A DNA stretch of 36,108 nucleotides from positions 1-36,108 of the forward strand of contig JAMOQJ010000093.1 of assembly GCA_027064065.1 (NCBI GenBank), in the 5' to 3' direction. Positions 30,546-36,108 of the stretch are shown piece by piece. The notes beneath the pieces are model-generated. The model made no database searches, had not been told where the DNA came from, and was given only the letters and a program-made list of their open reading frames with translations. This DNA is from Desulfurellales bacterium (GTDB lineage Bacteria > Campylobacterota_A > Desulfurellia > Desulfurellales > Hippeaceae). Made by a program: the position numbers and the translations under genes. Within the stretch, counting starts at the first letter, position 1, and every line of letters begins with the position of its first letter.

Positions 30546-31988
30546 ATGTTAAAAAACGCAAAAATTATCGCTTTCTTTACGCTGATAAGCAGATTATTTG
30601 GATATATAAGGGATTTTTTTATAGCAAGCTACTTTGGAACAAGCGTATATGCAGATATGTTTTTTATTGTATTTAGAATGCCCAATTCCTTAAGGAGATT
30701 TCTTGGCGAAGGTGCGGTTAATTCGTCCGTTGTTCCCGTTATTTCCAAACTTGAAGAATCCAAAAAACCAAAAGCAATATGGAATATAATAATTATTTTT
30801 GCTTTGGTTTTGTTTGTTGTGTCTGTTTTGGGCGTTATATTTTCAAAAGGGCTTATTGCTCTTTTTGCCGCCGGATTTTTACATTCCGATAAATTAAGCG
30901 TTATGGATAATATGACGAAACTTACCTTTCCATATATATTTTTTATAGGCTTAAGCGTTTTGTTGATGGGAATTTTGAATACCTACAACCGTTTTTCAAT
31001 TCCGGCTTTTGCTCCCACGCTTTTAAATATTAGCATCATAGGCAGTCTGGTTTTTTTCTATTCTAAATTTACCCAACCTGTTTATGCTTTGTGTGCAGGT
31101 GTTATTATAGGCGGTATATTGCAACTTGCTATATCGTTTTACGATTTTTTAAAGCTAAAATTGCCTTTTGAATTTCATTTTAAAATCGAAGATACAACAA
31201 AGGAAATCTTTAAACTTATGGCTGCTACGGCTTTGGGTGGCGGCATATTTCAGTTGTCTTCGATGGTTGATGCTTTTTTGGCATCTTTTATGGCTTATGG
31301 TAGTTTTTCGTATATATCTTATGCAAACAGGCTGTTTCAGTTGCCCTTTGCCGTTTTTTCCATCGCTTTAACCCAAAGTTCTTTGGTTGATTTATCCAAA
31401 CTTAAAACAGAAGAGATTTTACCAAAATCTTCACATTTGATAAAGTTTGTAAGTTTAATCTCTGTATTTGTTACGCTCTATTTTATTTTTTTTGGCAAAG
31501 ATGTTATAAAACTACTTTTTGAGCACGGAGAATTTAGCAGTGTATCGACAGACAATACCTATTATGCTCTTGTTTTTATGATTTTTGGTTTTTTTTTCTT
31601 TTCACAAACGAAGATACTCTCCAATATGTTTTATGCAATAAAGGATGTAAAAACGCCACTTAAAGCGTCCATTTACGCTGCTTTTTCTTCAATTGTTTTT
31701 TCTATTATTTTGGGTTTGGTTTTAGGGTTTAAAGGGCTTGCCTTATCTATGTCGATTTCCGGTTTTGTTAATATGTTGGTTTTGGTTTTTTACATAAAAA
31801 ACAAAATGGGCAGTTTAAAATTGTCTTGGTTTGTGGATTTATCGGTGGTTATTGTTTTTGTGATACTTATTTTTGTTTCGCTTTTTATTAGGTTTGTCGA
31901 TATAAACTATATTTTAAGGGTTGTTTTGTCGGCTTTTGCTTATATAATCGTTTTTTATCCGTTTTACAGAAAATTTAGCCATATTTAA
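30546..31988 (+). CDS. murJ: Lipid II flippase MurJ
   Basis: MurJ moves lipid II across the inner membrane for peptidoglycan synthesis. The 480-residue protein is strongly hydrophobic with about 12-14 membrane helices. The N-terminal segment RDFFIASYFG and the conserved MPNSLRRFLGEGAVNSSVVPV (in part RRFLGEGAVNS) are the family signature with charged residues facing the central cavity. FEHGEFS and the region around KILSNMFYAIKD also fit. It ends the long plus-strand run, and its stop shares TTAA with the convergent ygbA-type gene. There is no clear ribosome site within the four-base gap. Confidence 0.94.
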   Translation: MLKNAKIIAFFTLISRLFGYIRDFFIASYFGTSVYADMFFIVFRMPNSLRRFLGEGAVNSSVVPVISKLEESKKPKAIWNIIIIFALVLFVVSVLGVIFSKGLIALFAAGFLHSDKLSVMDNMTKLTFPYIFFIGLSVLLMGILNTYNRFSIPAFAPTLLNISIIGSLVFFYSKFTQPVYALCAGVIIGGILQLAISFYDFLKLKLPFEFHFKIEDTTKEIFKLMAATALGGGIFQLSSMVDAFLASFMAYGSFSYISYANRLFQLPFAVFSIALTQSSLVDLSKLKTEEILPKSSHLIKFVSLISVFVTLYFIFFGKDVIKLLFEHGEFSSVSTDNTYYALVFMIFGFFFFSQTKILSNMFYAIKDVKTPLKASIYAAFSSIVFSIILGLVLGFKGLALSMSISGFVNMLVLVFYIKNKMGSLKLSWFVDLSVVIVFVILIFVSLFIRFVDINYILRVVLSAFAYIIVFYPFYRKFSHI

Positions 31989-32305
31989 AAGAAGTAATGG
32001 AATATCCAATCGAGCCTTCCACGTTTAATCATATATATACCGCTAAATTTCATAATTTCTTTGATTTTTGCTCTCATCTCTTTGCTGTAGCAGTGGATTT
32101 TGCAGTGTTTACATTGTGGCTTTGGGTCAAGCGGGCATTTTTCGTTTTTTTGTTTTGCGTATAAAAATAGCTCGTAACATTCTTTGCACATACCATTATT
32201 ATGCTCTTTTATGCCTTTTTTTAAGTGATTTTCCTTACAGTATACCTGTATAAATTTTTTTAGTATTTTTTCGTCTTTTTTTATTCTTTTGGATTTTTCC
32301 ATCAT
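31985..32305 (-). CDS. ygbA: YgbA/nitrous oxide-stimulated promoter family protein
   Basis: A 106-residue Cys-rich protein. The core GMCKECYELFLYAKQK, EKCPLDPKPQCKHCKIHCY and MRAKIKEIMKFSG is the YgbA family pattern; cysteines are at 23, 40, 43, 57, 65, 68 and 72 and probably bind metal. In enterobacteria ygbA is induced by NO through NsrR and helps growth under nitrosative stress; the chemistry is unknown. There are two possible starts, 32305 and 32302, and neither has a ribosome site: the ATG lies directly on the T-tract of the flavodiiron-gene terminator. Expression by read-through from that operon is inferred. Its stop overlaps murJ. Confidence 0.85.
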   Translation of the reverse strand: MMEKSKRIKKDEKILKKFIQVYCKENHLKKGIKEHNNGMCKECYELFLYAKQKNEKCPLDPKPQCKHCKIHCYSKEMRAKIKEIMKFSGIYMIKRGRLDWIFHYFF

Positions 32306-32312
32306 AAAAATA

Positions 32313-32342
32313 AAAAAGGGCAGGGTAAAAACCCTAACCCTT
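32313..32342 (-). terminator. Rho-independent terminator after the flavodiiron gene
   Basis: On the minus strand AAGGG-TT-AGGGT pairs with ACCCT-G-CCCTT around a T4 loop, followed by TTTTTTATTTTT. It starts at the flavodiiron stop codon and its T-tract ends at the ygbA ATG. Confidence 0.85.
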
Positions 32343-33531
32343 AATCAACTATACCGATACTTTTGTGTTTTTCGTATATTTTTTGGGCAAGTTCGTCCAA
32401 CGCTTTGTAATCGTTTTCTTTGGGTTCGCCCTTTACCAATACCGGGTCGATGACATCTACCTTTAGGTTTGTAAGCAAACCCAAGATATGGTCGACGGCT
32501 TTTCCGCCCCAGCCATAAGATGCAATAATAGAAGCAAATTTTGCTTTAGGTCTCAAAGCGTTTGCAAGATAAGCCAAAGATGCTATGGATGGGTGAGCGC
32601 CGGCTAAAACAAACGGTGTTGCAAATACTACTGTAGCGTCGTTCACAAGCGCCATTGCAACTTCTCCAAGTGGAACTTCTATAATGTTGAATAATTTCAC
32701 ATCGATACCCTTTTCTACCAGTGCATCTCCCAAATGTTCAACCATCTTTTTTGTGCTGCCGTGCATAGATACATAAGGTATTAAAACTTCGTTATCCAGT
32801 CTATCAGAAACCCAATCCTTGTAAGCGTCTATGATGAATTTCGGGTTTTTATAAACAGAGCCGTGGCTTGGGCAAATCATATCAAAATCGAGTTCTTCTA
32901 TCTTTGCTATATGTTTTTTGATATGTGTCCTAAATGGCATCATAATTTCTGCGTAGTAGTGTTTTGCTCCTTCATATATGAGCATCTCGTCTTTTGGTCC
33001 AAATATCCTGCTTGTTGCTATGTGTGAGCCGAAAAAGTCGCATGTGAAGAGCATCTTTTTTTCTTCCAAGTAACTTATCATCGTTTCAGGCCAATGAACC
33101 CACGGCGTAAAAATGAATCTTAGGTGCTTATCGCCCAAATCCAGAATGTCTCCGTCTTTTACAGTGATAAATTTATCTTCGGCAATAGGCATCAAATCCA
33201 TCAAAAAGCCTTTGCATTTTTCGTTTGTTACGACCTTTGCTTCTGGGTATTTTTCTAAGATTGCAGGGATTGAGCCTGAATGGTCTTGTTCGGCATGGTG
33301 CGCTACTACGTAATCCAATTTGTCAACACCAAGCGTTTCCAAGTTCCTTATTAGTTCATAGGTTTTGTCCGGGTCTACCGTATCAAGTAGTGCCGTTTTT
33401 GTGCTACCCTTTATTAAATATGCATTGTAACTTGTGCCTTTAGGTAGCTCTACAAGTTCATCAAAGATGGGCCTATCCCAGTGGATAGCCCCGACAAAGT
33501 ATACATCGTCTTTAAGTTTTTGTACTGCCAT
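32341..33531 (-). CDS. Flavodiiron protein (A-type flavoprotein, O2/NO reductase)
   Basis: A 396-residue cytoplasmic enzyme that reduces O2 to water and/or NO to N2O. The N-terminal metallo-beta-lactamase-like domain (about 1-250) keeps the di-iron ligands: H79, E81, D83 and H84 in AHHAEQDHSG, then a His in WVHWPET, Asp in FTCDFFGSH, and His in CPSHGSVYK. The C-terminal flavodoxin domain has the FMN loop YVSMHGSTKKMVEHL and a later ASYGWGGKAV. No extra domain is fused, so it needs an electron donor; rubredoxin from the same operon (33965) fits. Eighteen bases separate it from the desulfoferrodoxin gene and a terminator follows. Confidence 0.95.
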   Translation of the reverse strand: MAVQKLKDDVYFVGAIHWDRPIFDELVELPKGTSYNAYLIKGSTKTALLDTVDPDKTYELIRNLETLGVDKLDYVVAHHAEQDHSGSIPAILEKYPEAKVVTNEKCKGFLMDLMPIAEDKFITVKDGDILDLGDKHLRFIFTPWVHWPETMISYLEEKKMLFTCDFFGSHIATSRIFGPKDEMLIYEGAKHYYAEIMMPFRTHIKKHIAKIEELDFDMICPSHGSVYKNPKFIIDAYKDWVSDRLDNEVLIPYVSMHGSTKKMVEHLGDALVEKGIDVKLFNIIEVPLGEVAMALVNDATVVFATPFVLAGAHPSIASLAYLANALRPKAKFASIIASYGWGGKAVDHILGLLTNLKVDVIDPVLVKGEPKENDYKALDELAQKIYEKHKSIGIVD

Positions 33532-33549: not shown

Positions 33550-33930
33550 TTATCCTTTCCATAGACCGTGAAGGTTGCAGTATTCTCTTGCTGATACATC
33601 TTTGCCTTCAGGCACTTCGAATCTTGCTTCAGGCGCATCACCAGGTTTTAGGAATTTGATATAGATTGCTCCGTCCACATTCAATTCAATCCATTCGATA
33701 TAGTGTTTATCTTCCATAGGGTGTGCCGTATTTTCGCCTACCTTTACTACATAGGCGTTTCCTTCTCTTTTAATGAAAGGAACGTGCTTTTCGGTTGATG
33801 AATCGGCAGTTTTTTCTTCAAATTTTACCATAGGTTTTCCGCAACATACCAATTCTCCTGCTCCACCGTGCAATACCTCTACGATATTTCCACAAACCTC
33901 ACATTTGTAAACTTCAAGTCTTTCAGCCAT
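33550..33930 (-). CDS. dfx: Desulfoferrodoxin (2Fe superoxide reductase)
   Basis: Superoxide reductase turns superoxide into peroxide without making O2, as used by anaerobes. The 126-residue protein has the N-terminal desulforedoxin centre with C10, C13, C29 and C30 (CEVC and VCCGKPM) and the catalytic mononuclear iron site with H49, H70, H76, C118 and H121 ([27 protein letters not shown]). Lys48 of the EKHVP loop, which helps catalysis, is present. It is thus the complete two-iron type. Rubredoxin, the usual electron donor, is 34 bases upstream. A good AGGAGGTATTG-type site precedes the ATG. Confidence 0.96.
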
Positions 33931-33964: not shown

Positions 33965-34126
33965 TTATGTATATTCTTCAAATGAATCCTTGTCAACTCC
34001 ACAAATAGGGCATGTCCAATCATCGGGTAAATCTTCAAAAGCTACACCCGGCTCTACGTTGTTTTCAGGGTCGCCGATTTCTGGGTCGTAGATGTAGCCG
34101 CAGACTTCACATTGATATTTTTTCAT
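33965..34126 (-). CDS. rub: Rubredoxin
   Basis: A 53-residue protein starting [20 protein letters not shown] and ending KDSFEEYT. The four iron-binding cysteines are C6, C9, C39 and C42 in CEVCGYIYD and [11 protein letters not shown], and the conserved aromatic residues W37, Y11 and Y13 are in place. It carries single electrons to superoxide reductase and flavodiiron protein in many anaerobes, and both are encoded downstream on the same transcript. The ribosome site GGAGG lies four bases before the ATG. It is short enough to be missed by gene callers. Confidence 0.97.
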
Positions 34127-34139
34127 TTAGCCTCCAAAA

Positions 34140-34556
34140 TTATTTTAAACATTTTTTACAAATCCCGTAAGATGCGATATTGTAGCTGTTAATTTGATTG
34201 CCTTCCTTGTTTATACTGTTAAAGCATTGTAGGTCTATTGGAAACTTGTATATATTATTGCATATTTCGCACTTAAAGTAAAGATAGATATTTCCGTCGT
34301 TTAAGCAGTAGTATATTTCATCTTGGTTGAATATTATCTTGTTAAGTATATTATGCTTCTCAAATATCATTAAGTTATTATAAAGTGTTGCTTTTGAGAT
34401 TGTGGATGTTGTGTCGTAAAGTGTTTTGTATATTTCGTCAATCTTTAGACATTTTTTGCTTTTTATGATTTGCTCAAGTATGACTATTCTGTAGTAAGAT
34501 GTATTGATATTATGTTTTTCTAAAATCTCTTTAGAGAGCTTTTGATTTTTGTTCAT
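34140..34556 (-). CDS. Divergent Fur-family transcriptional regulator lacking the usual regulatory metal site
   Basis: A 138-residue protein with the Fur fold: a winged helix with recognition helix STISKATLYNNLMIFEKHNIL (here about 51-71, key part TLYNNL) and a dimerisation domain. The structural zinc cysteines are kept as C96, C99, C133 and C136 (KCEIC and ICKKC). By comparison with PerR of B. subtilis as I recall it, the regulatory ligands are changed: H37 to C36, H91 and H93 to Y91 and Y93, D104 to K104, and C84 lies near the D85 position. Only H15 and H68 exist. So it probably does not sense Fe/Mn in the usual way; a thiol or constitutive mechanism is possible. It overlaps the ogg gene by four bases. 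Confidence 0.85.
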   Translation of the reverse strand: MNKNQKLSKEILEKHNINTSYYRIVILEQIIKSKKCLKIDEIYKTLYDTTSTISKATLYNNLMIFEKHNILNKIIFNQDEIYYCLNDGNIYLYFKCEICNNIYKFPIDLQCFNSINKEGNQINSYNIASYGICKKCLK

Positions 34557-35194
34557 TTAAACACTTCCTTTGTTTCTTTGTACCAGAGAACGAAATCCAG
34601 ATGGTGCATTGGTATATTAATTTCCTTTGCCCAGTTTTGCATATCCTTTTCTATTGTTTTATATGTTTTTTCGTTTATTGTTTTTGGTATTTCTTTTAAT
34701 ACGCCGTAGTTTTTTAGATTTTTTAATATATGTCTATCAAGTATCGCCAAATCATACCCAAAACCCGTATTTCTTAAGAAGTGGCTTGCTTCTTTGTATC
34801 CGTAGCCCTTAATATTTTTTACAAGCCAGTCTCGTGCTTCATATACATCGTTAAAGTTGTTAATCGTCTTTTTAATATCTCTATTTTTAAATTTGGCTAT
34901 TGCTTCTTTTATGTATTTAGCTTTGTTGTTTTTGAATCTAACGTTGTTGATTGCGTTGGATAATTCCAAAACAGACGCTTTAAAAACATAGTCGTTTGTA
35001 AAAATATCGTCTGTAACCTTAGCGCAGGTTTTGGCTTTGGATTGTGGAGTCATTAAGCAAAACACCATTTCTTTAAGCATAGCTTTATTGTCTGCGGTTT
35101 CTTTAATATTGTTGAACTCTTTTATTCTGTTTTCTATAGTGTGTTTTATCGTTGAATAAATGCGTTTTAATTCTTCCATAACCCCAATTTCCAT
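34553..35194 (-). CDS. ogg: N-glycosylase/DNA lyase, Ogg2 type (8-oxoguanine)
   Basis: A 213-residue helix-hairpin-helix-GPD protein of the archaeal/Thermotoga Ogg2 group, which removes 8-oxoguanine and cuts the abasic strand. The hairpin and catalytic lysine are in GYGYKEASHFLRNTGF (K134), and the catalytic aspartate in DLAILDRHI (D153). The early CLMTPQSKAKTC is the family's damage-pocket region. No iron-sulfur cluster Cys set is present, unlike endonuclease III. The start may be ATG 35194 or 35179 (MEELKR); neither has a convincing ribosome site. A strong promoter lies upstream at 35238-35265, and the gene heads the oxygen-stress operon. Confidence 0.9.
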   Translation of the reverse strand: MEIGVMEELKRIYSTIKHTIENRIKEFNNIKETADNKAMLKEMVFCLMTPQSKAKTCAKVTDDIFTNDYVFKASVLELSNAINNVRFKNNKAKYIKEAIAKFKNRDIKKTINNFNDVYEARDWLVKNIKGYGYKEASHFLRNTGFGYDLAILDRHILKNLKNYGVLKEIPKTINEKTYKTIEKDMQNWAKEINIPMHHLDFVLWYKETKEVFK

Positions 35195-35237: not shown

Positions 35238-35265
35238 ATTATACTTTAATTATAATATTTGTCAA
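35238..35265 (-). promoter_or_regulatory. Strong promoter for the oxidative-stress operon
   Basis: On the minus strand TTGACA (35265-35260) and TATAAT (35243-35238) match consensus fully with a 16-base spacer. The transcript would begin near 35231 with a leader of about 37 bases. The plus-strand element AATTATA occurs at 35237 and again at 35248, one helical turn apart and over the -10/spacer, where a regulator could sit. Confidence 0.8.
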
Positions 35266-35382: not shown

Positions 35383-36108
35383 ATGAATAGAGAGCTTTTG
35401 GATAAAATAATCAAGATTAAAAAATCGATAAACATAAAAGTTCTATATGTTGAAGATAATAAAGATGCAAGAGATGAAACTCTTGGTTTACTTGAGCAAT
35501 TTCTTAGTAATATAGATACTGCTTGTGACGGGATAGACGGTCTTGAGAAATTTAAAAATAATAGATATGACCTTATAATTACCGATATTAATATGCCAAA
35601 AATGAACGGCATTGATATGATAAAAGAGATTAAGAAGATAGATAAAAGAGTGCCGATAATTGTTATTACGGCGTTTAACGACTTTGAGTATTTAATGGAA
35701 AGCATTAAAATAGGCGTTTACGGCTACATATTAAAACCTATAGATATGAATCAACTGCTTGAGTCGATTTATCGCGTTGTTGATAAAATAAGGTTAAGAA
35801 AAGAGAGAGATGAAGCCTTAAGTCTGCTTGAGCAATATAAAAATATAATAGACGAAAGCGCTACGGTTACAAAAACAGACCCAACAGGCATTATAACCTA
35901 TGCTAATGATGCTTTTTGCAAAAGCACCGGCTACACAAAAGAAGAGCTTATAGGCAAGCCTCACAACATAGTCAGGCATCCGGATATGCCCAAGTCTGTG
36001 TTTAAAAATCTTTGGGATACAATTAAAAGTAAAAAAATATGGTACGGTATTATTAAGAATAGAACCAAAGATGGAAAAGCAATTTATATGAAAGCCACCA
36101 TAGCTCCT
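35383..36108 (+). CDS. Response regulator receiver-PAS protein, C-terminus outside the window
   Basis: The frame is open to the right edge; 242 residues are visible. The receiver domain (about 17-133) is complete: acidic pair E24/D25 in YVEDN, phospho-acceptor D68 in ITDINMPKMNG, T96 in VITAFND and K118 in ILKPID. A helical linker (135-158) leads to a PAS domain (about 158 to beyond 240) with TDPTGIITYANDAF and the segment KPHNIVRHPDMPKSVF, which resembles PAS domains of energy-taxis and diguanylate cyclase proteins. The output domain (GGDEF, EAL, histidine kinase or other) is not visible. The start ATG has no ribosome site. It is divergent from the stress operon and shares its 188-base control region. 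Confidence 0.92.
   Translation, partial: MNRELLDKIIKIKKSINIKVLYVEDNKDARDETLGLLEQFLSNIDTACDGIDGLEKFKNNRYDLIITDINMPKMNGIDMIKEIKKIDKRVPIIVITAFNDFEYLMESIKIGVYGYILKPIDMNQLLESIYRVVDKIRLRKERDEALSLLEQYKNIIDESATVTKTDPTGIITYANDAFCKSTGYTKEELIGKPHNIVRHPDMPKSVFKNLWDTIKSKKIWYGIIKNRTKDGKAIYMKATIAP

Follow-up and report, generated by a model that had tools for sequence, protein, structure and literature searches.

A PerR-derived Fur-family regulator with replaced regulatory ligands and a possible dithiol switch in an oxygen-defence operon of Desulfurellaceae

An oxygen-defence operon and its Fur-family regulator

The window, i.e. the whole stretch of DNA analysed here, comprises 36,108 nucleotides of a Desulfurellales bacterium (assembly GCA_027064065.1, contig JAMOQJ010000093.1). 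Its relevant features are listed in Table 1. The second open reading frame of the operon, which overlaps the preceding ogg gene by 4 bases, is a real gene and its product belongs to the Fur superfamily, reaching 52 bits with the FUR profile against a cut-off of 23. The best PDB matches by sequence are PerR chains, and none of the NCBIfam subfamily cut-offs is reached, the best PerR models scoring 37.7 and 36.8 bits versus the required 200 and 180.

Table 1 Features of the operon, its promoter and the regulatory site of the regulator
Feature	Position	Strand	Basis and remarks
YgbA_NO family protein	31985..32305	minus	PF11756 9.4e-23; after fprA in four of four genomes; operon membership uncertain
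FprA-type flavodiiron protein (O2/NO reductase)	32341..33531	minus	PF19583 3.7e-25; NF008887 1.4e-76, below equivalog cut-off
Desulfoferrodoxin (superoxide reductase)	33550..33930	minus	TIGR00320 3.6e-56, above cut-off
Rubredoxin	33965..34126	minus	PF00301 1.1e-24; NF045768 above cut-off
Fur-family regulator gene, 138 aa	34140..34556	minus	PF01475 7.1e-14; clade of four orthologues
K104, codon AAG	34245..34247	minus	PerR D104 position; K, K, R, R across four orthologues
Y91 and Y93, codons 91-93 Tyr-Leu-Tyr	34278..34286	minus	PerR H91/H93 positions; both invariant in four orthologues
C84, codon TGC	34305..34307	minus	PerR D85/Fur E81 position; HMM alignment, invariant in four orthologues
C36, codon TGT	34449..34451	minus	PerR H37/Fur H33 position; alignments, invariant in four orthologues
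N-glycosylase/DNA lyase (8-oxoguanine glycosylase, Ogg), first operon gene	34553..35194	minus	PF22175 4.7e-56; NF002305 above cut-off
Sigma-70 promoter TTGACA-N16-TATAAT of the operon, upstream of ogg	35238..35265	minus	12/12 match; conserved in four operons
Candidate operator AAATATTATAATT in promoter spacer	35248..35260	minus	Contains PerR-type half-site TTATAAT

Three orthologues of the regulator were found, all of them in Desulfurellaceae MAGs, one from the same genus (59% identity) and two from a second genus (48-49%). The gene order ogg, regulator, rubredoxin, desulfoferrodoxin and FprA flavodiiron protein is common to all four genomes, and a profile search detected no metal-uptake or efflux gene in the operon. 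The regulator probably controls the oxygen-defence operon that contains its gene. Arrangements of this kind are known for PerR, since the rbr1-perR-rbo operon of C. difficile is PerR-repressed and autoregulated and PerR of C. acetobutylicum controls flavodiiron and superoxide-reducing genes (PMC11841134).

Within the class, a canonical PerR-type gene adjoins the same kinds of enzymes in other genera (L073, L074, L075). At L074:1026-6744 (genus g7), for instance, the neighbouring oxygen-defence genes encode rubredoxin-domain, multihaem-cytochrome-like, flavodiiron, rubrerythrin-like, peroxiredoxin-like and desulfoferrodoxin proteins. Two genomes of genus g5 possess a longer oxygen-defence operon, also headed by ogg, with no Fur-family gene inside (L076:2162-6272 and L081:1993-6076); it includes flavodiiron, peroxiredoxin-like, ferritin-like, rubredoxin and desulfoferrodoxin genes.

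In all four genomes, fprA is followed by a gene for a YgbA_NO protein, also called 'nitrous oxide-stimulated promoter' protein. Since flavodiiron proteins reduce O2 or NO, the two genes could together serve NO defence, and the thiols of the regulator, or iron bound to them, would then respond to nitric oxide. However, the superoxide reductase and Ogg indicate oxygen rather than NO, and a terminator-like stem (32336-32321) separates fprA from ygbA in the window, so that we regard a nitric oxide sensor as very improbable.

Two further observations concern the surroundings. Divergent from ogg, a gene that continues beyond the end of the window (35383-36108) appears to encode a response-regulator domain and, after it, a PAS domain; its apparent homologue at L035 encodes a protein of 663 amino acids and is likewise divergent from ogg. 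Elsewhere in the same genome, NiFe hydrogenase-like genes for small, large and cytochrome subunits and a maturation protease are directly preceded by a second Fur-family gene, whose product has full ligands (L102:2639-4430, G000:C43).

The promoter and a candidate operator

The element AAATnTTATAATT is present between the promoter hexamers of all four regulator-bearing operons, its first A being the last base of TTGACA, and farther upstream of the promoter the four operons are much less alike. For comparison, we inspected eight ogg genes without an adjoining regulator, in seven of which a similar promoter can be recognised; TTATAAT does not occur within the spacer of any of these seven. At L114 this string arises only through overlap with the -10 box, and at L119 there is no good promoter. 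Since the four regulator-bearing promoters represent about three lineages, this contrast is suggestive rather than proof. In each of the four genomes, the ogg promoter site is also the sole perfect match to the full operator pattern.

Compared with the PerR 7-1-7 box TTATAATnATTATAA, the promoter of the regulator's operon exhibits one conserved half-site, TTATAAT, and no clear second one, although the -10 box could act as the second half-site, with 3 bases between the two. The simplest reading of the sequence is that the regulator would act as a steric repressor of the very strong promoter of its own operon, repression and autoregulation both being inferred.

A wider regulon found no support, since in the regulator's own genome the operator pattern occurs at two to three mismatches about as often as control patterns. 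The best second sites there (L125 and L129) have no recognised oxidative-stress gene nearby. In another genome, an operator-like site with two mismatches was noticed just upstream of a ferredoxin-like gene, which is followed by an apparent carbon monoxide dehydrogenase gene (L127:1501-2191, G003:C72); it was not seen as a target common to the other genomes.

The remodelled regulatory site

PerR and Fur are the textbook examples of sensing at a metal site built from histidines and carboxylates. In the regulator described here, the five regulatory ligand positions are occupied by C36, C84, Y91, Y93 and K104. The initial annotation of the locus had already read C, Y, Y and K at the positions of PerR H37, H91, H93 and D104, which our alignment confirms, and it had noticed C84, which it located merely close to the D85 position. 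In most sequences of the HMM alignment of about 50 homologues, C84 falls into the column of the D or E that serves as the PerR-D85/Fur-E81 ligand, and the offset by one is due to a loop gap. C84 therefore replaces this ligand, and consequently none of the five regulatory ligands is left, cysteine standing in for two of them. Throughout the four orthologues the PerR set H37, D85, H91, H93 and D104 reads C, C, Y, Y and K/R. The ligands of the iron regulator Fur (H33, E81, H88, H90, E101) are likewise replaced, and Asn is found instead of the helix Arg of Fur. The site does not correspond to Zur either, since it shares the cysteine (C84) but has Tyr instead of His at the H91 and H93 positions.

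As annotated, the protein has only two histidines; these are H15 and H68. Neither is invariant in the clade, and no invariant His was found across the four orthologues. Since the clade thus lacks any conserved His, at the site or elsewhere, the Fe-catalysed histidine oxidation of PerR is very unlikely to be the mechanism, and the dismissal of this mechanism in the initial annotation appears well supported. A rebuilding of the site by other histidines is rejected, since H15 and H68 are not conserved. The basic residue at position 104, a charge reversal relative to PerR D104 in all four orthologues, together with the loss of both His argues against a divalent cation at this site. Two further candidates were rejected: C111 as a third thiol partner, since it is absent in L036/L037, and heme sensing via a Cys-Pro motif as in Irr-type proteins, since there is no Cys-Pro.

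Both C36 and C84, as well as Y91 and Y93, are invariant in the four orthologous regulators (K or R at 104), so the cysteines that the annotation had singled out are kept in every orthologue found; because two of the four sequences are near-identical, this conservation rests on three lineages. The clade contains seven invariant runs of at least three residues, among them CLK (36-38) and YCLNDG (83-88). The latter, which includes the invariant D87, is the second-longest run after TISKATLYNNL of the recognition helix. There is strong purifying selection on the close pair L036/L037 (dN 0.017 and dS 0.35 by NG86, dN 0.019 and dS 0.23 by YN00), whereas dS is saturated or not computable in most of the wider comparisons. 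The purifying selection, the conserved operon and the conserved runs rule out a pseudogene or random drift.

In a maximum-likelihood tree, the four regulators form one clade (support 100/100) on a long stem of 1.1 changes per column. This clade falls into a group (90/93) whose remaining members carry PerR-type ligands; the exact sister is not settled by the tree. The recognition helix is of the PerR type (YNNL), and N60 (PerR N61) is invariant. Such an Asn marks PerR-box binders (PMC8638851). Because of the company in the tree and the helix Asn, the regulator is best described as PerR-derived, even though its site is not that of PerR. Other intact homologues (about 50 distinct ones were retrieved) retain most or all of the standard ligands, with a few showing single departures or gaps and divergent ones such as L030 and L034 lacking the H37 equivalent; the combination C/C/Y/Y/K was found in none of them outside the clade. 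The regulator's own genome encodes two further Fur-family members with full ligands, one of which clusters with the C. jejuni peroxide regulator of structure 6dk4. A single-protein scan of genome contigs gave no match to the regulator, and neither did viral contigs; plasmid matches are below 40% identity, and the annotated ones are named PerR or Fur-family/transcriptional repressor.

The structural cysteines C96, C99, C133 and C136, which form two CXXC motifs of a Zn(Cys4) site, are present as annotated and invariant in the four orthologues. The protein would be expected to bind zinc there and to be a dimer. AlphaFold2 predicts a Fur fold (pLDDT 84, pTM 0.75) from the four-sequence alignment, the best of five models being far above the others. 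This one good model is nearest to the closed, metal- and DNA-bound forms of Fur and PerR (4rb1_A, TM 0.76, rmsd 2.8; 3f8n, PerR-Zn-Mn, TM 0.69, rmsd 4.0) and distant from the open forms (2fe3, rmsd 14.6; 4ray_A, rmsd 13.4).

The closeness to closed forms is what one would also expect of a dead regulatory site, in which K/R104 and the other new side chains would hold the DNA-binding form closed without metal, C36 and C84 would be packing residues, and oxidation of the Zn(Cys4) site would eject the zinc. The intact Cys4 site would allow this, and oxidation or persulfidation of Zn(Cys4) is indeed the switch in PerR of S. oligofermentans and Synechococcus (PMC7380579, PMC9952342). In B. subtilis-type PerRs, however, these cysteines are inert to H2O2 (PMC7380579, PMC4866751), and few parts of the protein match the remodelled pocket in conservation, a finding that packing alone explains poorly. 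We therefore consider it doubtful that the site is dead.

In the closed form of Fur and PerR, a single metal is coordinated from both the H37 and the D85 position, and for this reason C36 and C84 should be close in space. A pair of cysteines at two positions that share a metal might as well form a sulfur-donor site for a soft metal such as Zn2+, Cu+ or Fe, perhaps with Y91, Y93 or D87, the invariance of the last being in keeping with such a role. The metal would then, as in Zur, link the DNA-binding domain to the dimerisation domain, and the metal or its oxidative loss would be the switch. The position of C84 is that of a regulatory zinc ligand in B. subtilis Zur (PMC4866751). Against a metal site of this kind stand the positive charge added by K/R at the D104 position, the Tyr residues in place of both metal-binding His and the lack of a metal-uptake or efflux gene in the operon. 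Moreover, the few next-best operator-like sites that were checked lead to no recognised zinc gene. Altered metal sensing is therefore unlikely in our view.

A proposed dithiol switch and its relation to known systems

With the ligands lost, two cysteines conserved and the gene placed in an oxygen-defence operon, it is probable that the regulator senses oxidants by sulfur chemistry and not by iron. Our favoured, though tentative, reading is that the regulator derives from PerR and represses superoxide/O2 defence genes including its own, with a dithiol beside a Lys/Arg in place of the Fe/His peroxide site. This reading fits the operon, the conserved Cys pair and the charge reversal, and it is favoured by the PerR-type helix, by the occurrence of the spacer element only in regulator-bearing operons and by the resemblance of the model to closed forms. 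Points against it are the small number of lineages behind the Cys pair and their shared long stem, the zinc-binding Cys of Zur at the C84 position, the shallow alignment behind the one good model and the lack of a clear second half-site in the candidate operator. With slightly more reserve, one could assume that the pocket has turned from metal sensing to a Cys36-Cys84 dithiol plus Lys/Arg and senses oxidants or polysulfide on behalf of the superoxide-reductase operon. We hypothesize that the switch consists of the C36/C84 dithiol and that oxidation of these thiols by ROS or polysulfide would operate it. Polysulfide is a plausible signal, since Desulfurellaceae respire sulfur or polysulfide (PMC5317093). 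The initial annotation had named the right alternatives, thiol-based or altered metal sensing, but missed the Cys precedent in Zur, the possibility of sensing at Zn(Cys4), the basic residue at 104 and the operon with its candidate operator.

Under anoxic, reducing conditions, a dimer stabilised by Zn(Cys4) would bind the candidate element in the spacer and block RNA polymerase at the very strong sigma-70 promoter. C36 would be located in the DNA-binding domain and C84 at the hinge/dimerisation domain, and the Lys/Arg at 104 might keep the thiols reactive by favouring thiolates. Peroxide derived from superoxide, products of O2 or polysulfide would then oxidise C36 and C84, which would become joined across the hinge by a disulfide or polysulfide, and this bridge would alter the angle of the DNA-binding domains, so that the promoter is released.

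If this is true, the hinge of a Fur-family protein can be switched by thiol chemistry. The clade, with its Fur fold, PerR helix and PerR-type operon but swapped ligands, also represents a natural test of what purpose the metal site serves. Moreover, it suggests how sulfur-reducing anaerobes exposed to sulfide and polysulfide may do without an iron-based sensor of peroxide in running this oxygen-defence operon. A word search of open-access papers, which is weak evidence, found no published member of the Fur family in which the H33/H37 and the E81/D85 position are both Cys; C84 alone has a precedent in Zur.

There are similarities and differences in regard to several known systems. Zur likewise carries a Cys, there a zinc-binding sulfur donor, at the D85/E81 position (PMC4866751). 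However, it has His at the H91/H93 positions, where the regulator has Tyr, and the regulator differs further by the Cys at the H37 position and the PerR-type helix. Zur controls zinc uptake genes; the operon described here is one of oxygen defence without zinc genes. Within the Fur family, H2O2, sulfane sulfur or thioredoxin are known to act on cysteines of S. oligofermentans PerR, Synechococcus PCC7002 PerR and Anabaena FurA. In contrast to C36 and C84, their sensing cysteines are described in the CXXC or Zn(Cys4) motifs (PMC7380579, PMC9952342, PMC8229018), and S. oligofermentans PerR retains the regulatory His positions (PMC7380579), which the regulator does not.

With PerR of B. subtilis, C. 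difficile and C. acetobutylicum, the regulator shares the fold, the Zn(Cys4) cysteines and the YNNL helix as well as the location inside an operon with superoxide reductase and related oxygen-defence genes, whose promoter carries a candidate site. The ligands of these proteins are H37, D85, H91, H93 and D104, whereas the regulator possesses C, C, Y, Y and K/R and no conserved oxidisable His. Canonical PerR-type genes are also found at L073 and L074 from genus g7. Like the regulator gene, they lie beside superoxide reductase, in their case together with rubrerythrin and, at L074, a flavodiiron protein. The PerR-type gene of the class also has its box between the -35 and -10 elements of its own promoter, as seen at L074, where it is a perfect 7-1-7 palindrome of 15 bases, TTAGAATAATTCTAA. 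L073 and L074 differ from the regulator in this perfect PerR-like box and in the ligands H, D, H, H and D.
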